14,848 nucleotides of DNA from Bacteroidales bacterium (lineage in GTDB: Bacteria; Bacteroidota; Bacteroidia; Bacteroidales; F082): contig JAFWRA010000248.1 in assembly GCA_017508895.1 (NCBI GenBank), positions 1 to 14,848 on the forward strand, read 5' to 3'. The notes beneath the pieces were generated by a model. The model was not told where the DNA came from. It searched no databases and saw nothing but the letters and a program-made list of their open reading frames with translations. Shown in pieces: positions 2,619 to 12,831 of the stretch. The translations under genes were made by a program, and so were the position numbers. Positions within the stretch are counted from its first letter, which is position 1. The number at the start of each line of letters is the position of its first letter.

Positions 2619-4499
2619 TCATTTTCCTTCTTTGAACCGCACAATTGCATCGATAATCTCGTCATTGTCGTCGGATATGGTGAGAATCATGTTCTTGAAG
2701 ATGCCACGGTCGCTCAGGTCCTTCAGCAGCGAATAGGCTGGAATATAATTGGTGTAATAGTCCTTGCCCATAAAAATCATCGGACTGGCATAACCCTCAC
2801 TCTCATAATGGTTTTGGCCTGCGTCTTGGAAAATCTCTTGCATGGTACCTGCGCTGCCTGGGGTGTAAATGATGCCTCCCTTGGCGATGGTCACGATGCC
2901 ATCCTCACGCACACTGTTGTCGAAATATTTGGCGATGTCGGTGGCAAAAGGCGCGGTCGGCTCATGACCGTAAAAATAGGTCGGGATGGCAAGGCTACGG
3001 TAGTCCGTTTGCAAGGGGAAACGTTCCATCAACTCGAAAGAACGGCGAAGCCAACCCTCATCCTTATAAGTCGGCGAAGGCATGAGCATGTCAACGGCTT
3101 CGTTGGTCTCGGCCTCGCTCCTACCCGCCATCCAGGCTCCGAGATGCGCAGCTTCCATGGCTCCAGGACCGCCACCTGTCACCATCAGTTTGCCCATCTC
3201 GGTGAGACGCTTACTCAAGAAAACAATCTGGCGGTATTGCGGGTCGTCGCGGCGCTTGGCGTGACCGCCCATGACGCCGATGATATCCTTCTCATCATAC
3301 ATATCAAGCATTTTGTACAGTTGATGCGTGATGAAATGGTCATGAAGGGCGCGCGCCAAAGTCTCCAACACATCGTGACCACGTTTGCCTTGAGCGATAT
3401 AATGCCGATAGACTTTCGTGTCATAACAATTCTCGAAGGTGGATTCATCGTGGTAATCATAGCCTTCATACAGCCTCTTGCTGTCATACAACTTCTTGAT
3501 ATAGGTATCGAAAGGTTTGCCCAACCGGCGGATATAGACGCTGAAATCTTTGTTGGATGTAATCTCCAACACACGCTTGACGATGCCCGCAGCATCCAAC
3601 CCGAACTTGTGCATCAACGCCATGGCCTGCCCCGACTCGCCGAAGCGGTCGTCCATACCAATGCGGCATACACGAATGGGATGGTTTTCGGCCATAAACT
3701 CCGCCACGGCACTGCCCAGACCTCCTGTGATTTGATGTTCCTCGATAGTAAAGATCATTCGGGTTTCCTCGGCAGCCTTGTTGAGGATATCGCCATCCAA
3801 CGGCTTGATGGTGTGCATGTTGACGACGCGGGCAGAGACATTCATACGCTCCAACATGTGAGCGGCTTCCAAGGCTTCCCACACCTCGTGACCCGTAGCC
3901 ACAAGGGTAATATCCGTACCCTCGCGCATCAGCTGGGCCTTCCCGATCTCAAAGTCTTGGTTTTCATCGGTAAAATCCGGAACTGCTTCACGCCCAAAAC
4001 GCACATAGACAGGACCTTTGCATTCCAAAATGGCTTTCTCTGTAGCGATTTTGGCCTGCGTGGCGTCGCAAGGCGAGATGACGGTCATGTTGGGCAGCAC
4101 ACGCATGGTGGCGATGTCCTCCAAAGCTTGGTGCGTGGCACCATCGGGGCCAACCGATACGCCGGCATGGGCACCCCCTATGACGACATGCACATTGTTG
4201 TAGCACACCGAAATACGAATCTGGTCGTTGGCACGATGTGCAGCAAAAACGCCGTATGTGCTGAACACGGGAAGCTTTCCACTTAATGCCAAGCCAGCCG
4301 CAGTTGCCACGGCATCCTGCTCTGCAATACCCATGGAGAAGAACCTTTCGGGGAAAGCTTCAGCAAAGAGGTTCATTCCCACCGAATTGGTGATGTCGGC
4401 ACCCAGACCGACCACCCTTTTATCTTGTTGAGCCGCAGCGAGAACACCCTCGCCGAAGCCCGTCTTTGTGGCTTTGTTGCCTTTATTAGTATAGTTCAT
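2619..4499 (-). CDS. Transketolase C-terminal subunit fused in frame to a LOG-family nucleotide-binding protein
   Basis: A 626-residue protein with two recognisable parts. Residues 1-313 are a complete transketolase C-terminal subunit: pyrimidine-binding domain with the cofactor-activating glutamate in SMGIAEQDA (Glu60), GGAHAGVSVGPDGATHQALE (109-128), VYVRFGRE (164-171), and the C-terminal domain with HTIKPLDG and DRFGESG. Residues from about 314 to 626 are a LOG-type Rossmann protein: MGGHAKRRDD (410-419), VTGGGPGAMEAAHLGAW (440-456), NSVREDG (528-534) and TPGSAGTMQEIFQDA (546-560), the last a variant of PGGxGTxxE. LOG/PpnN enzymes hydrolyse nucleoside 5'-monophosphates to base plus ribose 5-phosphate, which transketolase can use. 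No linker is visible and the LOG part has no ATG of its own until residue 397. The start overlaps the N-subunit gene by 14 bases. Both family calls are firm; nucleosidase activity and channelling are inferred. Confidence 0.92.
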   Translation of the reverse strand: MNYTNKGNKATKTGFGEGVLAAAQQDKRVVGLGADITNSVGMNLFAEAFPERFFSMGIAEQDAVATAAGLALSGKLPVFSTYGVFAAHRANDQIRISVCYNNVHVVIGGAHAGVSVGPDGATHQALEDIATMRVLPNMTVISPCDATQAKIATEKAILECKGPVYVRFGREAVPDFTDENQDFEIGKAQLMREGTDITLVATGHEVWEALEAAHMLERMNVSARVVNMHTIKPLDGDILNKAAEETRMIFTIEEHQITGGLGSAVAEFMAENHPIRVCRIGMDDRFGESGQAMALMHKFGLDAAGIVKRVLEITSNKDFSVYIRRLGKPFDTYIKKLYDSKRLYEGYDYHDESTFENCYDTKVYRHYIAQGKRGHDVLETLARALHDHFITHQLYKMLDMYDEKDIIGVMGGHAKRRDDPQYRQIVFLSKRLTEMGKLMVTGGGPGAMEAAHLGAWMAGRSEAETNEAVDMLMPSPTYKDEGWLRRSFELMERFPLQTDYRSLAIPTYFYGHEPTAPFATDIAKYFDNSVREDGIVTIAKGGIIYTPGSAGTMQEIFQDAGQNHYESEGYASPMIFMGKDYYTNYIPAYSLLKDLSDRGIFKNMILTISDDNDEIIDAIVRFKEGK

Positions 4500-5292
4500 G
4501 CAAAAACTCCTTTAGTTGTTCCTTACTCGGCACTTTGCCATGCCATTGGTTGTTGTCTTCGATGCTTTTCACGCCCTTGCCCATGATGGTGTCGGCGATG
4601 ATTACCGTTGGCTTATCTTTTTCTTTATCAGCCAATTCCAAAGCCATCTTGATTTGACTCAAGTCATGACCGTCAATCTCGATGGTATGCCATCCGAAGG
4701 CCTTCCACTTGTCGCACAAAGGGTCAATGGCCATCACCTTCTCCGTACCGCCGTCGATTTGCAGACGGTTGCGGTCAATGATAGCACAAAGGTTGTCCAA
4801 TTTATGATGCGCCGCCGCCATGGCTGATTCCCACACGCTTCCTTCTTGCTGCTCACCGTCGCCCATGATGCAGAACACACGGTTAGGGCTGCCGTCCATC
4901 TTGGCTGCCAAGGCCATGCCCAATGCCACCCCAAGACCTTGTCCCAACGAACCCGAACAGGTCTCCAAGCCTGGCAAACGGAACTCGTAGCTCGGATGTC
5001 CTTGCAGCCGGCTGCCCAACTTGCGCAAGGTCAGCATTTCCTTTTCAGGGAAATAACCAGCCGCCGCCAAAGTCGCGTAAAGCACAGGTGCCGTATGCCC
5101 GATGGAAAGCACCACCTTGTCGCGGTCTTCCCAATCAGGACGTTTCGGGTCATGGCGCAAATGGTTGAAATACAAAACCGTGAAGATATCCACCAAGTCG
5201 AGGGAGCCGCCCGTATGTCCCGAGCCTGCCTCAGCCAAAGCGGTCAGTATCAATTCACGAATATGTCGTGCTTTTTCTTCCAAATCTATCAT
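4486..5292 (-). CDS. Transketolase N-terminal (thiamine diphosphate-binding) subunit
   Basis: A 268-residue split-transketolase N subunit that should pair with the downstream C subunit to transfer two-carbon ketol units between pentose phosphate pathway sugars. Visible motifs: GSGHTGGSLD (23-32), LSIGHTAPVLYATLA (62-76), SGSLGQGLGVALGMALA (113-129), and the Mg/thiamine diphosphate motif starting GDGEQQEGSVWE (144-155) and ending at the asparagine of IIDRNRLQIDGG (171-182). Length is normal for the split form. The start codon overlaps the stop of the DUF456 gene (ATGA), and its own stop overlaps the fusion gene by 14 bases, pointing to translational coupling and subunit stoichiometry control. 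Other split transketolases act on unusual sugars, so the exact donor and acceptor are not certain. Confidence 0.94.
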   Translation of the reverse strand: MIDLEEKARHIRELILTALAEAGSGHTGGSLDLVDIFTVLYFNHLRHDPKRPDWEDRDKVVLSIGHTAPVLYATLAAAGYFPEKEMLTLRKLGSRLQGHPSYEFRLPGLETCSGSLGQGLGVALGMALAAKMDGSPNRVFCIMGDGEQQEGSVWESAMAAAHHKLDNLCAIIDRNRLQIDGGTEKVMAIDPLCDKWKAFGWHTIEIDGHDLSQIKMALELADKEKDKPTVIIADTIMGKGVKSIEDNNQWHGKVPSKEQLKEFLHELY

Positions 5293-5899: not shown

Positions 5900-6724
5900 A
5901 TGAAAAAACTTCTATTCCTTATAACCCTATTTTTCTCAACTTCAACGCTTTTCGCCCACGACTTCATCCATCCCCTCGGAGGGCGAGCTGCAGCCATGGG
6001 AGGCTCGTCGGTGGCCTCGCAAGGGCTGTGGGCCATGCAGAACAACCCCGCCGGCATGGCCAACTTGAACAAAATAAGCTTAGGATTGTACTATGAAAAC
6101 CGTTGGATGCTGCCCGAAACGGCCTACAAATGCGGTGCCTTTGCCCTGCCCACCAAGTTCGGATGCTTAGGACTTAGCTTCAACCAATTTGGCTCATCGA
6201 AATACAACGAGAACAAGTTTGGGCTCGCCTATGCCAAGGACTTTGGGCGTTACCTACAAATCGGGCTTCAACTCGACTACCTCTTACTGAAAATAGGCAA
6301 TGACTATGGCTCGTATAGAGCCGTTACCTTTGAGTTGGGTTTGCAATCGCAAGTCACTGACAAACTGACGCTTGGCACCTACATTTTCAATCCCGTCAAC
6401 TTCCGGTTGGAGCAGACCTTGAACCATGAGAAACTGCCCATCGTGATGCGTTTTGGTTTGGCCTACCAATTCACCAAAGATTTCATCGGGCAATGCGAAA
6501 TCGAGAAAAACACGGAGCACGAAGGGGTCAGCCTTAGAGGAGGGTTGGAGTATGAAGCATTCAAGAATTTCTACATCCGCGCCGGGGCGCAAACCAACCC
6601 TGGAATCTTGAGTTTCGGACTCGGCTATGGCATCCGCTTTGCGCAAATCAACGTCGCGGCGCAACTGCACAACGAATTGGGGGCATCCATACAAATCGGA
6701 ATGATTTTCAGCATTGGAAAGTAA
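5900..6724 (+). CDS. PorV/UPF0164-like outer-membrane beta-barrel protein
   Basis: A 274-residue exported protein. Residues 1-19 (MKKLLFLITLFFSTSTLFA) are a signal peptide. The mature N terminus HPLGGRAAAMGGSSVAS, followed by NNPAGMANL, is the hallmark start of PorV/PorQ/UPF0164-type FadL-like barrels, and the rest alternates in amphipathic strands (GLGLSFNQFGSSKY-type, ending SIQIGMIFSIGK with a near-terminal aromatic/hydrophobic strand). It is shorter than typical PorV or PorQ, so it is probably a separate small barrel and not a named type IX component. It has its own promoter and lies one base before the next gene's start, so the two are almost certainly co-transcribed and may work together. 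Function is unknown. Confidence 0.8.
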   Translation: MKKLLFLITLFFSTSTLFAHDFIHPLGGRAAAMGGSSVASQGLWAMQNNPAGMANLNKISLGLYYENRWMLPETAYKCGAFALPTKFGCLGLSFNQFGSSKYNENKFGLAYAKDFGRYLQIGLQLDYLLLKIGNDYGSYRAVTFELGLQSQVTDKLTLGTYIFNPVNFRLEQTLNHEKLPIVMRFGLAYQFTKDFIGQCEIEKNTEHEGVSLRGGLEYEAFKNFYIRAGAQTNPGILSFGLGYGIRFAQINVAAQLHNELGASIQIGMIFSIGK

Positions 6725-6725
6725 A

Positions 6726-8894
6726 ATGAAACGACTGGTTATCATCATATTATCTTTGTTTTTCGTCGCCGCTGCCAAGGCACAGATCGCTATCGACACG
6801 CTCAGCACCGAAGCCTTGAACCAACTGCTCATCGAACAGGTGGAACGCCTTGCCGAAGACAGCGATGAAGACATTGATTTTGAAGATCTTTTGGAGAATT
6901 ACATCTTCTTCAGCGAGAATCCCGTCAACATCAACAGCGCTGAAGTGATGCAATTGGTGGAGCTACACCTGCTCAATGTATTCCAGTATGAAGAGTTGCA
7001 GAAATACCGTCGCTATTATGGAGATTTTATGTTCCTCGACGAATTGGAAATGATGGAAGGTTTCGATGAACAAACTCTTGCCATCATCCGGCCCGTGGTC
7101 TGCATCGAGAAAGATCAAAGCAACGACAAACTCACGCTCAACAAAATGGCGCGTTACGGCAAACACCAGATTGTGGGGCGTTACGAACAAATCCTTGAAA
7201 AACAGCAAGGTTACCAACCCATCGACGACTCTGCACTTTTGGCCAAGCCCAACTCGCGCTATCTCGGTAGCCCGCAGAAATACCAGCTGAAATACACCTA
7301 TAATTATAGGAACAAGATTCGGGCATGCTTTGTACTTGAGAAAGACGCGGGCGAAATCTTCTTCACTGACAAGGTCGGCGACACGATTCAGAAACTGTTG
7401 GGCGACAAATTCTATCGCGGCTTCGATTTCGTTGGTTTCCACCTCTATGCCAAAGACTTGGGAATCGTAAAGGCTGCTGTGCTTGGCGATTACCAACTGT
7501 CGTTCGGGCAAGGTTTGACGATGTGGTCGGGCATGAGTTTCGGCAAGGCAGGCTCGGGCAGCAGCGTGATGAAGCAAGGACGAGGCATCACGCCCAAGGG
7601 CTCGGCCAGTGAATATGCCTTTATGCGAGGCGCGGCAGTCACCCTTGGTAGCGGACCTTTCAGCGGTACCGTGTTCTACTCCAATCGCATGATAGACGCT
7701 AATATCAGCGTGGTCGACACCATAGAAAATGAAGCCGAACTCGTCAGCAGCCTGCAAGAAACGGGCTATCATCGCACTATCGGTGAAATTTTAGACCGCC
7801 ATGCCATCCGTCAGCAGGTCATTGGAGGACATTTGGCTTATGCCATCGCCCATTTCGAGGTGGGTTATACCGCACACCACAATTGGCTCAGCGCACCACT
7901 CGAACTCAAGCCCAGCCATTACAACCAGTATTATTTTCAGGGCAAAAGCCTTACCAACCAAGGTATTGACTTCAAGTATGTGAAAGGGAAATATGCGCTG
8001 TTTGGCGAAGCCGCTATGAGCATGAACTTTGACAGTACGGCCCTTCGACAGGCTCAAGGACCGTTGGCTTTTGCAGGCTTGGTCGGCTTGACCGTAAAAC
8101 CTGCCGGTTATTTGAACTTCACCCTAATGTACCGCGATTATGGCAAGGCCTGTCAAAACCTCATGAGCAATGCTTTCGGCGAAGGCGGCCGCAACCAAGG
8201 GCAACATGGCATCTATCTCGGCGTGGAAGCCGCACCCGCGCCCTATTGGAACATCCTCGCCTATGTCGACCAGTTCCAATTCACCTGGCTGACCTCACAA
8301 GTCAACGCACCGAGCCGCGGCCACGATTACTACCTGCGCGTCAGCCACAGCTTCAATCGCCGCACACATGCCTACCTGCAATTCCGCTCAAAGACCAAGA
8401 TGAAGAACTCAACGGACGCTTTTGTCTTCAGCCACTACCCTATCTTCTACACCAAGAACGCCGTGCGTTTCAACATCAACTATGAATTAGGTTGGGACAT
8501 CCACTGTGCCAACAAAGCCGAATATGCCTATTACCGCAACGACGACGGCAGCAATGAACATGGTTATTTTCTCTGTCAGGACATCGCCTACAAACCTGAA
8601 AACAAACCCTATAGCTTCAGTTTCCGCTATGCCATCTTCGATGCCAAGGACTACAACGCCCGTATCTATGCCTACGAAAACGATGTATTGTATTCCTTCA
8701 GCGTGCCCGCTCTATACGGCAAAGGAATGAGAATCTATCTATTAGGTAAAGTAAAGCTATTCAATGCCTTGACACTCTACGCCCGTATCGGTCGCACCAT
8801 CTACAGCGACCGCGATGAAATAGGCAGCGGCTTGACGTTGATTGAAGGGAACCATAAGACGGATTTGAAAATAGAGGCGATTTGGAAACTGTAA
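6726..8894 (+). CDS. Outer-membrane barrel protein with N-terminal helix-hairpin-helix domain
   Basis: A 722-residue exported protein. The ATG at 6726 gives a clean signal peptide (MKRLVIIILSLFFVAAAKAQ); an in-frame TTG at 6714 would overlap the upstream gene and spoil it. After an acidic helical stretch (AEDSDEDIDFEDLLEN, 43-58), residues about 66-123 form a ComEA-like helix-hairpin-helix region (NPVNINSAEVMQLVELHLLN, then FLDELEMMEGFDEQTLAIIRP). The remaining 550 residues look like a beta-barrel: frequent alternating aromatic strands such as KYQLKYTYNYRNKIRACFVLE, Gly-rich turns and a basic C-terminal strand (DLKIEAIWKL). The helix-hairpin-helix part would be periplasmic and could bind DNA or mediate protein contacts. 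Proteins of this layout are found across Bacteroidota as uncharacterised. A REP-like palindrome is translated in frame near residue 440. Confidence 0.82.
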   Translation: MKRLVIIILSLFFVAAAKAQIAIDTLSTEALNQLLIEQVERLAEDSDEDIDFEDLLENYIFFSENPVNINSAEVMQLVELHLLNVFQYEELQKYRRYYGDFMFLDELEMMEGFDEQTLAIIRPVVCIEKDQSNDKLTLNKMARYGKHQIVGRYEQILEKQQGYQPIDDSALLAKPNSRYLGSPQKYQLKYTYNYRNKIRACFVLEKDAGEIFFTDKVGDTIQKLLGDKFYRGFDFVGFHLYAKDLGIVKAAVLGDYQLSFGQGLTMWSGMSFGKAGSGSSVMKQGRGITPKGSASEYAFMRGAAVTLGSGPFSGTVFYSNRMIDANISVVDTIENEAELVSSLQETGYHRTIGEILDRHAIRQQVIGGHLAYAIAHFEVGYTAHHNWLSAPLELKPSHYNQYYFQGKSLTNQGIDFKYVKGKYALFGEAAMSMNFDSTALRQAQGPLAFAGLVGLTVKPAGYLNFTLMYRDYGKACQNLMSNAFGEGGRNQGQHGIYLGVEAAPAPYWNILAYVDQFQFTWLTSQVNAPSRGHDYYLRVSHSFNRRTHAYLQFRSKTKMKNSTDAFVFSHYPIFYTKNAVRFNINYELGWDIHCANKAEYAYYRNDDGSNEHGYFLCQDIAYKPENKPYSFSFRYAIFDAKDYNARIYAYENDVLYSFSVPALYGKGMRIYLLGKVKLFNALTLYARIGRTIYSDRDEIGSGLTLIEGNHKTDLKIEAIWKL
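8038..8063 (+). repeat. REP-like imperfect palindrome inside a coding region
   Basis: The arms CGGCCCTT (8038-8045) and AAGGACCG (8056-8063) pair with one G-T mismatch around the core CGACAGGCTC. It matches, from memory, the widespread dispersed element of the TTCGACAGGCTCAGG type found in many bacterial genomes. Here it is in frame and encodes ALRQAQGP (residues 439-446) in the barrel protein. One copy was found in the window. The palindrome is seen; its identity as a dispersed repeat rests on recall. Confidence 0.6.
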
Positions 8895-8896
8895 AG

Positions 8897-10519
8897 TCAC
8901 TCCACCACCACCCTATCGACCTGCTGGTTTCCACCAACAAATGTCACCAAAGTATAAATGCCTTTAGACAGATTTTGGGTAGGAATAACGAGGAATTGGT
9001 TTTGCACAGCGAACGATTGCACCAAACGACCAGTCATATCATAAAGACTAACCACCGCTTCGACTTCTTCTTCAAAACGCAAATTGATACGATCCTTGGC
9101 AGGATTAGGAAAGATCTCAACAAATGGAGTTTCAACGACTTCCTCGACATTCCATGTGCCACACCCTGCATTGATTTCGCCATCCAAATAACTGAAACGG
9201 TCGTCCAACCAATCACTCATGTAGGTCAACTGGCTTTCATCAACGGTGTATTCGGGCCAAGCCTCATGCTCACGGTCGTAGGCACCACTCTCAACCAACT
9301 CATCGAATTGCCTTTGAACCAGTTCCATGATGTGTTCTGTGGTCAGAATATCATTGCGCAAGGCGTTGTAACGCGTTTTGGCCAAAGCCACAAATCCATT
9401 GTCATAACAGTCTTGGGTCAAACGATTGTAGAAGCCGTTGCTCGTCAAACCAGCCGCGTTGTAGGTCTTGTTGCCATCGGTGTCCAAACCCCAAACGGCA
9501 TCCAAGTCCCAAGGCAGGTACATATAGGCACTCGTTTTCTTGTAACGGGCCAAAAAGAGGTTGCGCCCCATATTGTCCATGGCCATCAAGCTATTGATAA
9601 ACAAGTAGTAATCAATGGCGTTATTCTTATCAAACTGGACGGCATACTGTGAATAGAACACGACGTCGGAGGCGTTTATCACGAAATTAGTGAAACTATA
9701 GAGATGGTTCCAATTGATGGCCGAGTCGCTCTCGTTGGGATACACCCATTCGTAGTTGTCCCACGTGTCTTGCGTATTGTCATAATCAGGCAAACTGTCA
9801 AAGGTGGGAGCACCAGGGCCATTGCCTTTGTACAGCACGCCTCTAATATCTCCGTTGTATTTGCGCAGTCTGAGTTGCTTGCGGTCCATACGCTCGGTCA
9901 AGGCGTAAATGCCCATATATTCGTCGTTGATGAACAGGTCGGCATACACCATGCGGATGCCTGGCAAAGCATCAGGCTCACTCTCTGCGTAAGGCAGTTG
10001 GTACATCTCCATCCACAGCTCATTGGCCACCTTGTCGCGAAGACGAAGCGGCTGTGCCCACATGGCTTCCAGATTCCAATCGTCATCGCTGCGCAAACCC
10101 AGGAAAGTGGTGTCGGCCATCACCGTTCCCGTTTCATCCGCCCATAGCTCAACACGATACGACTTCTTATCGTATTGCTGCGACGAAGTACCTCTAATCT
10201 TAAATCCGGCGTGCATCGTGATGACATTGCCATCGGCATCGGCCACGTTGATGACTCCATGCACCGCAGGCGAGTTGACAATCGGCCCATCGGTGGTAAT
10301 AGTGATAAGCGGCATTTCACTACGATAATAGACATAGGTTTCACCCTTCATCTCCATCGTTTCCTTATAGGGTTTCATGCCCTCAGGCAGTCGTCCCGTA
10401 GCCACTATGATTTTCTTCTCATGATCAACGCCGTACATCTTCCCGATCTGCTGCACATCCTGAGCCATCAATGCCCAACCCACAAACAGAAAGGCCATTA
10501 TCAAAAATAGTTTCTTCAT
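8897..10519 (-). CDS. Secreted CotH-kinase-family protein with type IX C-terminal sorting domain
   Basis: A 540-residue exported protein. The start at 10519 (MKKLFLIMAFLFVGWALMAQ) gives a signal peptide; the frame is open to an ATG at 10558, but that adds residues encoded by spacer repeats. The CotH-like domain covers about 85-450: FKIRGTSSQQYDKKSYRVEL (106-125) is the N-lobe lysine/arginine motif, YALTERMDRKQL (205-216) follows, and YLPWDLDAVWG (334-344) is the conserved metal/catalytic region. CotH proteins are atypical kinases in spore formers; related bacterial proteins are mostly uncharacterised. Residues about 463-540 are a Por-type sorting domain (FVEIFPNPAKDRINL, VSLYDMTGRLV, LSKGIYTLVTF), so the protein should be exported by the type IX system and cut or anchored at the surface. 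It is convergent with the barrel gene, the stops only two bases apart. Confidence 0.9.
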   Translation of the reverse strand: MKKLFLIMAFLFVGWALMAQDVQQIGKMYGVDHEKKIIVATGRLPEGMKPYKETMEMKGETYVYYRSEMPLITITTDGPIVNSPAVHGVINVADADGNVITMHAGFKIRGTSSQQYDKKSYRVELWADETGTVMADTTFLGLRSDDDWNLEAMWAQPLRLRDKVANELWMEMYQLPYAESEPDALPGIRMVYADLFINDEYMGIYALTERMDRKQLRLRKYNGDIRGVLYKGNGPGAPTFDSLPDYDNTQDTWDNYEWVYPNESDSAINWNHLYSFTNFVINASDVVFYSQYAVQFDKNNAIDYYLFINSLMAMDNMGRNLFLARYKKTSAYMYLPWDLDAVWGLDTDGNKTYNAAGLTSNGFYNRLTQDCYDNGFVALAKTRYNALRNDILTTEHIMELVQRQFDELVESGAYDREHEAWPEYTVDESQLTYMSDWLDDRFSYLDGEINAGCGTWNVEEVVETPFVEIFPNPAKDRINLRFEEEVEAVVSLYDMTGRLVQSFAVQNQFLVIPTQNLSKGIYTLVTFVGGNQQVDRVVVE

Positions 10520-10527
10520 ATTTAAAA

Positions 10528-10548
10528 ATTCAAGATTCAAAGATTCAA
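10528..10548 (-). repeat. Short ATTCAA repeat before the CotH-like gene
   Basis: ATTCAA recurs at 10528, 10535 and 10543 (spacing 7 and 8). It directly adjoins the heptamer array at 10549-10618 and extends it towards the CotH-like start at 10519, so almost the whole spacer is repeat. Confidence 0.55.
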
Positions 10549-10618
10549 CATACCTCATACTTCATACCTCATACCTCATTCTGCATTCTACATTCTACAT
10601 TCTACATTCTACATTCAA
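10549..10618 (-). repeat. Ten-unit heptamer array between the RSH and CotH-like genes
   Basis: CAT recurs at exactly seven-base intervals from 10549 to 10612 (ten units). The units are CATACCT or CATACTT on the left and CATTCTA (four perfect copies) on the right, with CATTCTG and CATTCAA as transitional forms. On the coding (minus) strand the array is ATG-anchored and begins directly after the RSH stop TGA (10615-10617): the first units read ATGTAGA, so each contains an AUG followed at once by a UAG stop. The spacing is not a multiple of three, so the ATGs fall in all frames. No CRISPR-like spacers are present. Confidence 0.85.
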
Positions 10619-12831
10619 TCGATTCTGTTTACATCAACAATGCCTTCAATAGCTTTAATCTTATTGATCAGCTGTTCAAGCGCTTCCACATCGGTGATTT
10701 GCAACACGATCCTTCCTTCAAAGAAACCTTCCTTGTCGGAATTGAAAACGATATTCTTCATGTTGACTTCCAAATCCTCGGAAATGACCTTAGTGATTTT
10801 GCCCAACAAGCCCATCACGTCGCGACCATAGATGCGGATGGTAGCTTGCGAGCCGTCAGCTTCAACGCCATTCCACTTCACCTTGATGATGCGATAACCG
10901 TAACGCTCCTGCAAGCCTTTGGCATTCGGACAGTTGGTGCGATGGATACTGATGGTGCCTTCATTGGTGACGAAACCAAACACACGGTCGCCAGGAATAG
11001 GATTGCAGCATTTGGCCAACTTGTAGGTCACATTGCTGATGTCCTCGCCAATGGAAAGCGACTCCTCCACTTCGGCGTTCTGCTCTTTTTTTGAAGCTCC
11101 AATAGTCTCTGGGACAGGCTTTTCACCTCTTTCCACATTCTCACCGAACTTAGCGGTCAGGAATCGCTTCACCTCCGCTATATCGATTTTTTCGGTAGAA
11201 ATCCGATGATAAAGCTGCAACGAGTTTTCCAACTTAAACTCTTTGACCAACATGTCGACCACAGTCTCCGAGAATGGCAGCTTCCAGTTTTTCAGCCTAC
11301 GTTGCAACATGCCCTTGCCCATCTCCGACTCTTTCAGTTCCTCTTCCTTGAGGTAGCGACGAATCTTGTTTTTGGCCTTTTCCGTGACCACCACATTGAG
11401 CCAGTCGGCACGCGGCGACTGTTTCTTGTTCGTGATGATTTCCACCTTGTCGCCATTGGTCAGCTCATGACGGATGGGCACCATACGCCCGTTGACGCGC
11501 GCGCCATTGCAGGTCTCACCCACACGCGTATGCACCTCGTACGCAAAATCAAGCACCGTAGAGCCAATCGGAAGCTGTTTCAGGTCGCCTTCAGGTGTGA
11601 AAATGAATATCTTATCGGACTTATGGATCTTCTTGTAAGAATTCTCAAACGACACCATACCAGGGTTTTCCAGCACTTGGCGCACATTGAGCAACCATTC
11701 CTCCGAAGTCTCCTTTTCACCTTTGTATAAATAGTGTGCCGCCTGACCCGTTTCGGCAACCTCATCCATTCGGGTAGTGCGAATCTGCACCTCAAACCAC
11801 AACTTGTCGTCATATTTCACCGTGGTGTGCAGCGACTCATATCCCGAGGCTTTCGGCTTGGTAATCCAATCGCGAAGGCGTTCCGGCATGGGGTCGTAGA
11901 TATTCGTGATAGCCGAGTACACAATCCAGCAACACTCCTGCTCGTCCTTCAAGGCGCAATTGATGATGACCCTTGCCGCCATCAAGTCGTAGACCTCCTC
12001 AAAAGGCACATTCTGCGCCTTCATCTTGGCATAAATCGAAGGAATCGACTTCAGACGCCACTTAATGGAATAACTGAACTTGTTTTTCCCGTTTTTCTTC
12101 GTCCTTTCAAGCTCTGCATCAATGCTTTCCGATATTTTGGCGACAAACTTCTCCGCGGTCTGCTTTTGGGCTTCATGAGTCGCCTCAATCTTGGTTTCAA
12201 TCTCATGGAACAACTCCGGATTCTCAAAGAGCATCAGCTTCTCTTCCAGCTCAGCCTTCAGTTTATAAAGGCCAAGTCGATGAACGATAGGAATATAGAT
12301 GTATTTGATTTCATGAAAATACTTCGACAACCGATCTAGCTCCACATCCTTTTGATTGCGAACGTCATACACACGATGCACCACTTTCAACAACACCGAA
12401 CGCATGTCGTCAATCATGGAAAGGAATAGCACCTGGAAGTTATCCGAGTTATAGGCCACCTTTTCCGTATCCAATTGCGAAATCTGGCTGAAGTCTTCAA
12501 GGATGATCGCCACCGTCTTTCCAAACTGGTCCTTCAACTCCTTGCCACTCACATCTTTCTTGTAATCAATGCCATGCAAAAAAGCGGCCACTACAGAGAT
12601 GTAGCCCAAGCCCACTTCGAGCACAGCGATACGCCCCAGTTCAATCAAGTGAAACATATAGGCCTTGCCCGACAACAGGTACCGGCCGTCATATTTATCC
12701 AGACAATAACGGTAAGCCTTGTCAATCAATTCCAGCTGATTGGGTGCATTGATGAAAGGTTGTATGTCTTTCAGCATCGATTCGTAGGCCTGCTGAATAG
12801 CCAATATTTCCAATGAAGAGTAACCTGCCAT
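10615..12831 (-). CDS. relA: RSH-family (p)ppGpp synthetase with degenerate hydrolase domain
   Basis: A 738-residue long RelA/SpoT homologue, normal length, making the alarmone (p)ppGpp from ATP and GDP/GTP. The N-terminal HD region (about 50-200) keeps the first histidine (YMFHLIELG, His61) but has FLHGIDYKKD in place of the HDxxED motif (Gly87 for Asp), and KVVHRVYDVRN where active hydrolases have ADRLHNMR (His152 for Asp), so hydrolysis is probably lost. The synthetase domain looks intact: RLKSIPSIYAKM (259-270), VYDLMAARVII with Asp282, SGYESLHT (329-336) and FEVQIRT with Glu347. Then come TGS (about 406-468, YEVHTRVG), the conserved cysteine pair (KLAKCCNPIPGD, 605-615) with IHRTNCPNA, and ACT (about 665-735). 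It follows clpS by 11 bases. RelA-type is preferred over SpoT because of the lost hydrolase residues; a second, hydrolase-active RSH is expected elsewhere. Confidence 0.93.
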   Translation of the reverse strand: MAGYSSLEILAIQQAYESMLKDIQPFINAPNQLELIDKAYRYCLDKYDGRYLLSGKAYMFHLIELGRIAVLEVGLGYISVVAAFLHGIDYKKDVSGKELKDQFGKTVAIILEDFSQISQLDTEKVAYNSDNFQVLFLSMIDDMRSVLLKVVHRVYDVRNQKDVELDRLSKYFHEIKYIYIPIVHRLGLYKLKAELEEKLMLFENPELFHEIETKIEATHEAQKQTAEKFVAKISESIDAELERTKKNGKNKFSYSIKWRLKSIPSIYAKMKAQNVPFEEVYDLMAARVIINCALKDEQECCWIVYSAITNIYDPMPERLRDWITKPKASGYESLHTTVKYDDKLWFEVQIRTTRMDEVAETGQAAHYLYKGEKETSEEWLLNVRQVLENPGMVSFENSYKKIHKSDKIFIFTPEGDLKQLPIGSTVLDFAYEVHTRVGETCNGARVNGRMVPIRHELTNGDKVEIITNKKQSPRADWLNVVVTEKAKNKIRRYLKEEELKESEMGKGMLQRRLKNWKLPFSETVVDMLVKEFKLENSLQLYHRISTEKIDIAEVKRFLTAKFGENVERGEKPVPETIGASKKEQNAEVEESLSIGEDISNVTYKLAKCCNPIPGDRVFGFVTNEGTISIHRTNCPNAKGLQERYGYRIIKVKWNGVEADGSQATIRIYGRDVMGLLGKITKVISEDLEVNMKNIVFNSDKEGFFEGRIVLQITDVEALEQLINKIKAIEGIVDVNRID

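Follow-up and report, generated by a model that had tools for sequence, protein, structure and literature searches.

A split-gene transketolase C subunit naturally fused to a LOG-superfamily domain in one family of uncultured Bacteroidales from rumen and gut

Analysis of a 14,848-nucleotide contig from a Bacteroidales bacterium (JAFWRA010000248.1 of assembly GCA_017508895.1; hereafter the window) revealed a gene for 626 amino acid residues (2619..4499, minus strand, as are all features of this operon) in which the C subunit of a split-gene transketolase is joined to a domain of the LOG superfamily. The transketolase part covers residues 1 to about 313 and the LOG part residues 314 to 626 (2622..3560); both are complete and lie in a single open frame with no linker between them, which confirms the claim of an initial annotation of this DNA. 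Strong Pfam matches were obtained for the pyrimidine-binding domain of transketolase (Transket_pyr, PF02779; residues 10-174, 3978..4472) and for Transketolase_C (PF02780; residues 186-306, 3582..3944). The fusion is real, natural and conserved, and an assembly or frameshift artefact is ruled out because many assemblies carry the same frame, among them a rumen Bacteroidales genome (locus L001) with 99 percent identity to the window. None of the loci compared encodes a LOG gene in a separate frame right after the transketolase C gene. In the one exception to the uninterrupted frame, locus L035 of genome G010, a frameshift lies near the start of the transketolase part and away from the junction (L035 6001-6081 and 6057-6902), and would represent either a decayed gene or an assembly error.

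When the same two-domain architecture was sought in other genomes, it was found in 37 of 173 genomes of the family, L035 included, and in 111 of the 120 best database matches of the LOG part. At E ≤ 1e-12 the LOG domain was detected in 42 family genomes, of which 37 are fused (open frame of at least 599 residues with a transketolase part) and five are without an adjacent transketolase. All 120 best database matches carry some transketolase C sequence; for 111 of them the alignment spans at least 280 residues in each part, and for nine it covers 52 to 271 residues of transketolase C. Among 393 genomes sampled from the order, 20 had this LOG at E ≤ 1e-20, three of them fused and all three within the family list, and the remaining 17 matches lie in frames of 80-442 residues, too short for both parts. 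Similarly, 13 of 395 genomes sampled from the phylum had this LOG at E ≤ 1e-15, only G001 being fused, with the other matches in frames of 372-460 residues, again too short for both parts; as both sets are samples, fusions elsewhere are possible. The family of these uncultured rumen and gut Bacteroidales is F082 of GTDB and includes Candidatus Limimorpha equi (L022 in G003) and 'bacterium F082' (L011), the LOG DNA of the latter being identical to that of L052 in G058. Both parts are of known kind and their joining is new; no description of a transketolase-LOG fusion was found in the open-licence PMC literature searched, where passages of PMC6908837, PMC11051065 and PMC10107265 that name relevant terms are unrelated to such a fusion.

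The junction (about residues 311-318; 3546..3569) reads 'RVLEITSNKDF' in the window and, judged by eye, keeps its register across the fused loci compared. By the same inspection, its position corresponds to the stop of unfused transketolase C genes of the clade, which end in 'RVLREWA' or 'RILKEWK' followed by a stop codon, and to the start of several standalone LOG proteins ('MITSNDF' or 'MITNKDF'), others of which start otherwise or with extensions. Such an arrangement fits an end-to-end joining of two complete genes. The initial annotation had noted that no ATG for the second part lies near the junction, which is correct for the window but does not extend to many fused loci, since 24 of 34 of them have an in-frame ATG about a dozen codons past the start of the LOG part, where the window has TTG. 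The window also has in-frame GTG and TTG codons at the junction, the GTG codon being found at this position in 22 of 34 fused loci; internal initiation giving a separate LOG product is possible.

The transketolase is of the split-gene type, with the PP domain on one polypeptide and the Pyr and TKC domains on the other. The thiamine diphosphate-binding N subunit (TKN, 268 residues; 4486..5292) is encoded by a separate gene, and its 14-base overlap with the fused gene, noted at the outset, exists in the window but is not a general feature, being found in 9 of 36 fused rows; in the remaining ones the matched N and C parts are up to 467 nt apart. A triple fusion of N subunit, C subunit and LOG was suggested by open frames of 907-962 residues in eleven genomes and was rejected; the two transketolase genes share a frame in 11 of the 36 fused rows, with a stop between them in all 11, and lie in different frames in the other 25 and in three further loci.

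Among solved structures, the best matches of both subunits are to the split transketolase of Carboxydothermus hydrogenoformans (6yaj, 6yak; for the N subunit the N-component in 6yak), in which the N (thiamine diphosphate) and C (Pyr plus TKC) polypeptides are likewise separate and which, according to passages of PMC7661550, is an active alpha2beta2 heterotetramer. Its C chain has 341 residues, no LOG part and an Arg at the phosphate site, whereas the fusion of the window has a LOG part and a Lys. The catalytic Glu60 is kept in the fused protein, and the equivalents of the phosphate site are K12, S39, F85, H111 and R170, that is K-S-F-H-R compared to the R-S-F-H-R given for canonical transketolases in passages of PMC11659671. 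The string K-S-E-F-H-D-H-R was found in every fused row but one cut piece (35 of 36) and in 5 of 5 rows from loci that lost LOG (see below). Of 18 unfused outgroup rows, 11 have it and seven carry Arg instead, so that the Lys predates the fusion. A second split transketolase of these genomes has the Arg in 8 of 8 rows, and two distant rows read RSEFSLHR. One might suppose that the transketolase half acts on another sugar, LOG supplying or removing a special phospho-sugar; the exchange of Arg for Lys, the presence of a second split transketolase in most fused genomes and the split transketolases for sulfofructose described in parts of PMC11659671 would agree with this, but we consider it very improbable, as the remaining phosphate-site residues (S, F, H and R) follow the canonical pattern and not the RAFDR reported there for the sulfofructose enzyme, and the Lys is older than the fusion.

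Because the LOG part scores 24.9 bits against PF18306, under the cut-off of 26.3, its identity is based on profile and fold comparison; among the matches listed, the fused domains score 20.6-23.7 bits against PF03641, below the curated cut-off of 27. The structural model has a Rossmann-type LOG fold and is nearest to type-II LOGs and to Neisseria YgdH, then to PpnN. In a profile alignment via the relative 1wek, residues R531, T552 and E555 correspond to Arg155, Thr175 and Glu178 of Cg1261, for each of which a change to Ala abolishes activity according to passages of PMC5379747. The catalytic Arg and Glu are invariant in an alignment of 44 rows, and a pattern spanning both occurs in 109 of 111 full fusions as well as in 116 of 121 standalone relatives. 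The nucleotide-binding motif PGSAGTMQE (residues 547-555; 2835..2861), which ends in E555, is the counterpart of PGGxGTxxE with one fixed position changed. When compared to the type-II LOGs (Cg1261 5wq3, TtLOGII 1wek and ScLOGII 5zi9), the fusion shows PGSAGTxQE for PGGxGTxxE, carries Glu532 (next to R531; 2904..2909) for Lys156, Gln554 for Asp177, and Asn528 and Ser529 for the prenyl-pocket residues Phe152 and Phe153, and has about 60 residues ahead of the aligned core in addition to the attached transketolase. As the catalytic residues are kept and the pocket residues changed, phosphoribose handling seems to be intact and base recognition to be altered.

The prenyl-pocket residues rule out a cytokinin-activating LOG, and a full PpnN is ruled out by score and by the absent C-terminal domain. 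The initial annotation had mentioned PpnN along with LOG enzymes, but an identity as PpnN could not be upheld: against E. coli PpnN (YgdH) the fused LOG scores 24 bits compared to an NCBIfam cut-off of 450, the alignment stops at PpnN residue 335-338 so that the C-terminal gating domain is absent, no Pfam match to its PAG2 (DUF3412) was obtained in the fusion at E ≤ 0.001, and pocket residues are changed. The N-terminal PAG1 (DUF4478) gave no Pfam match at the same threshold either, but some PpnN alignments begin near model residue 30. Standalone LOG-like proteins from Prevotella and other Bacteroidales (P0121-P0241) are 49-56 percent identical to the LOG of the window over the rows aligned and share its special motif (116 of 121), but they are unfused. 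No characterised member of this large family was met in the comparisons made here, and its changed base pocket makes the substrate a direct question.

With regard to the history of the locus, 18 outgroup loci (L074-L089, L100, L101) have the two transketolase genes without LOG, with 61-77 percent identity in the C subunit, and 12 of them have a DUF456 gene ahead of these; their genomes are absent from the set of 42 in which the LOG domain was detected. The unfused state is therefore ancestral and the fusion derived, with a probable single origin in the ancestor of one clade of this family. Inside the fused clade there are five loci with transketolase only (L028, L070-L073) and five with LOG only (L029-L032, L034), so that neither part strictly needs the other; in the LOG-only loci both transketolase genes are missing and DUF456 immediately precedes LOG. 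The genomes of the LOG-only loci still contain a second split transketolase in four of five cases, none being shown in G006.

Losses inside the fused clade could not be deduced from the transketolase C and LOG trees alone, in which the transketolase-only and LOG-only rows are drawn inside that clade; fused rows as one clade were not rejected there by AU tests (p 0.486 and 0.247). They are instead indicated by the tree of two flanking genes, by locus order and by a scar of the transketolase in the LOG-only proteins. The flank tree (49 of 53 loci) places both kinds of loci inside the fused clade and rejects the fused loci as one clade (p 3e-6) as well as the LOG-only loci as one clade (p 1e-5), although it has long branches and rows of odd composition, and the groups were named after the trees were viewed. 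As to the scar, the twelve residues ahead of the LOG part in LOG-only proteins match the junction seen in fused relatives, as in KNFERVLKEMST vs CIYERVMKEMAS; in shuffle tests p ranged from 0 of 5000 to 0.007, with L095 as best match for all five proteins, which are related to each other. We read this remnant as the trace of a lost transketolase. In contrast to the flank tree, the LOG tree groups the LOG-only loci (support 98/91), and from this conflict it seems that locus forms were exchanged between species by recombination, or that the transketolase was lost more than once. The DUF456 protein encoded by the first gene of the run DUF456-TKN-TKC(-LOG) (PF04306; 5289..5789 in the window; L001-L035) occurs in two types among close relatives, 58-62 and 69-99 percent identical to that of the window, which fits recombination at the locus. 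In another genome, a standalone LOG gene and a DUF456 gene on the opposite strand are separated by about 1 kb (L112 5033-7619), perhaps by chance or perhaps as a hint of the route by which LOG reached the locus.

Both halves are under purifying selection, whether joined or alone. Across the 34 fused loci, the median pairwise ratio of nonsynonymous to synonymous substitutions (dN/dS) was 0.054 for the transketolase C part (108 of 561 pairs usable), 0.071 for LOG (96 of 561) and 0.072 for the N subunit (204 of 561); the C subunit gave 0.068 in loci that have lost LOG (6 of 10 pairs), and LOG gave 0.043 in those that have lost transketolase (7 of 10 pairs), all of these values being rough because silent sites are near saturation. 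LOG-fold (SLOG) domains serve as sensors in other proteins, and the fused LOG domain might likewise sense a nucleotide or nucleotide derivative and regulate transketolase, hydrolysis being lost or irrelevant. Such a role appears somewhat unlikely, since a pure sensor need not retain the invariant catalytic Arg and Glu and since LOG is still constrained after its transketolase has been lost.

As a tentative reading, with a chance a little short of even, we propose that the fused LOG domain is a nucleotide hydrolase feeding ribose 5-phosphate to the attached transketolase and that this coupling is advantageous. A split-gene transketolase C subunit would have gained a LOG-superfamily phosphoribohydrolase as C-terminal extension and, by analogy, the complex would probably be an alpha2beta2 transketolase with two LOG domains, sufficient to form one LOG dimer. 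From a nucleoside 5'-monophosphate, or a related base-ribose-5-phosphate, LOG would release by hydrolysis the base and ribose 5-phosphate, the latter of which transketolase would then use with xylulose 5-phosphate. The fusion would fix the stoichiometry and co-locate production and use of ribose 5-phosphate, an aid to carbon salvage from nucleotides that would be helpful rather than obligatory. In E. coli, loss of PpnN abolishes the starvation-induced rise of sedoheptulose 7-phosphate and erythrose 4-phosphate, and it has been argued from metabolomics that PpnN-derived ribose 5-phosphate feeds sedoheptulose 7-phosphate, linking nucleotide breakdown to the pentose phosphate pathway (passages of PMC10311079), so that such a flux is realistic. 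Given a natural, conserved fusion with the catalytic residues of both parts essentially kept, the coupling to the pentose phosphate pathway put forward by the initial annotation is plausible; its proposal of direct passage between active sites found nothing in its favour, and the loci with either half alone speak against it. We consider less likely than not a stronger version, in which a bifunctional enzyme passes nucleotide-derived ribose 5-phosphate straight to transketolase and three interchangeable locus forms (fused, transketolase-only and LOG-only) are exchanged between species of one gut family.

Several observations weigh against the proposed feeding of transketolase by LOG. Cg1261 also requires Lys156 and Asp177 (passages of PMC5379747), and their replacements Glu532 and Gln554 are invariant in the 44 rows; with two needed pocket residues replaced, even activity on a nucleotide is putative. 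The second split transketolase, with about 48 percent identity, is present in at least 30 of the 37 fused genomes. Ordinary LOG genes above the PF03641 cut-off occur in 46 of the 47 genomes covered, which comprise 37 fused, five LOG-only and five transketolase-only ones, so that the fused parts are not the sole such enzymes and the fused domain is an additional, divergent LOG. The five loci without LOG and the five without transketolase belong here as well, and since each half survives alone, coupling would be an advantage and no necessity. No transketolase neighbour was found at any of the 14 standalone LOG loci inspected, over stretches of 7-13 kb, and thus a wider association of both functions was not seen. 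Finally, the AlphaFold2 model of the full fusion has low confidence in the transketolase half (mean predicted local distance difference test 76.7, predicted template modelling score 0.58) and was left out of active-site geometry. The survival of both halves alone and the absence of transketolase neighbours would also suit a fusion of mere convenience for co-expression or assembly, joining enzymes of unrelated steps and persisting since both are useful and splitting is rare; this we regard as unlikely, because the fused frame is retained across a diverse clade and because the LOG product, as expected from known chemistry, is ribose 5-phosphate, a transketolase substrate.

An active LOG domain would make the fusion a physical connection from nucleotide breakdown to the non-oxidative pentose phosphate pathway, and the natural fused, transketolase-only and LOG-only forms provide a ready comparison set on what enzyme fusion buys. 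The mesophilic gut genomes searched have split transketolases, often two. None of the 47 genomes exceeds the cut-off for full-length bacterial transketolase, a strict one that 8 of 14 controls and 13 of 14 of the ring pass, and no unbroken full-length match is present among the matches listed. Of the fused genomes, 34 have at least two transketolase matches listed, some of which are possibly other enzymes, and G003, G058 and G133 have one each listed.

Beside the operon, two divergent genes (window 5900-8894) encode a protein of 274 residues with no Pfam match at E ≤ 0.001 and one of 726 residues with only a weak helix-hairpin-helix match, and both of these flanking proteins are present in 49 of the 53 flank-tree loci. 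A RelA/SpoT homologue is encoded about 5 kb from the operon (10615-12831), and the LOG-only loci L029, L032 and L034 likewise have one nearby; according to passages of PMC10311079, (p)ppGpp activates PpnN of E. coli, but nothing here ties the homologue to the fusion. Between these lies a gene for a CotH-kinase-like protein with a secretion-system C-terminal sorting domain (8897-10558).
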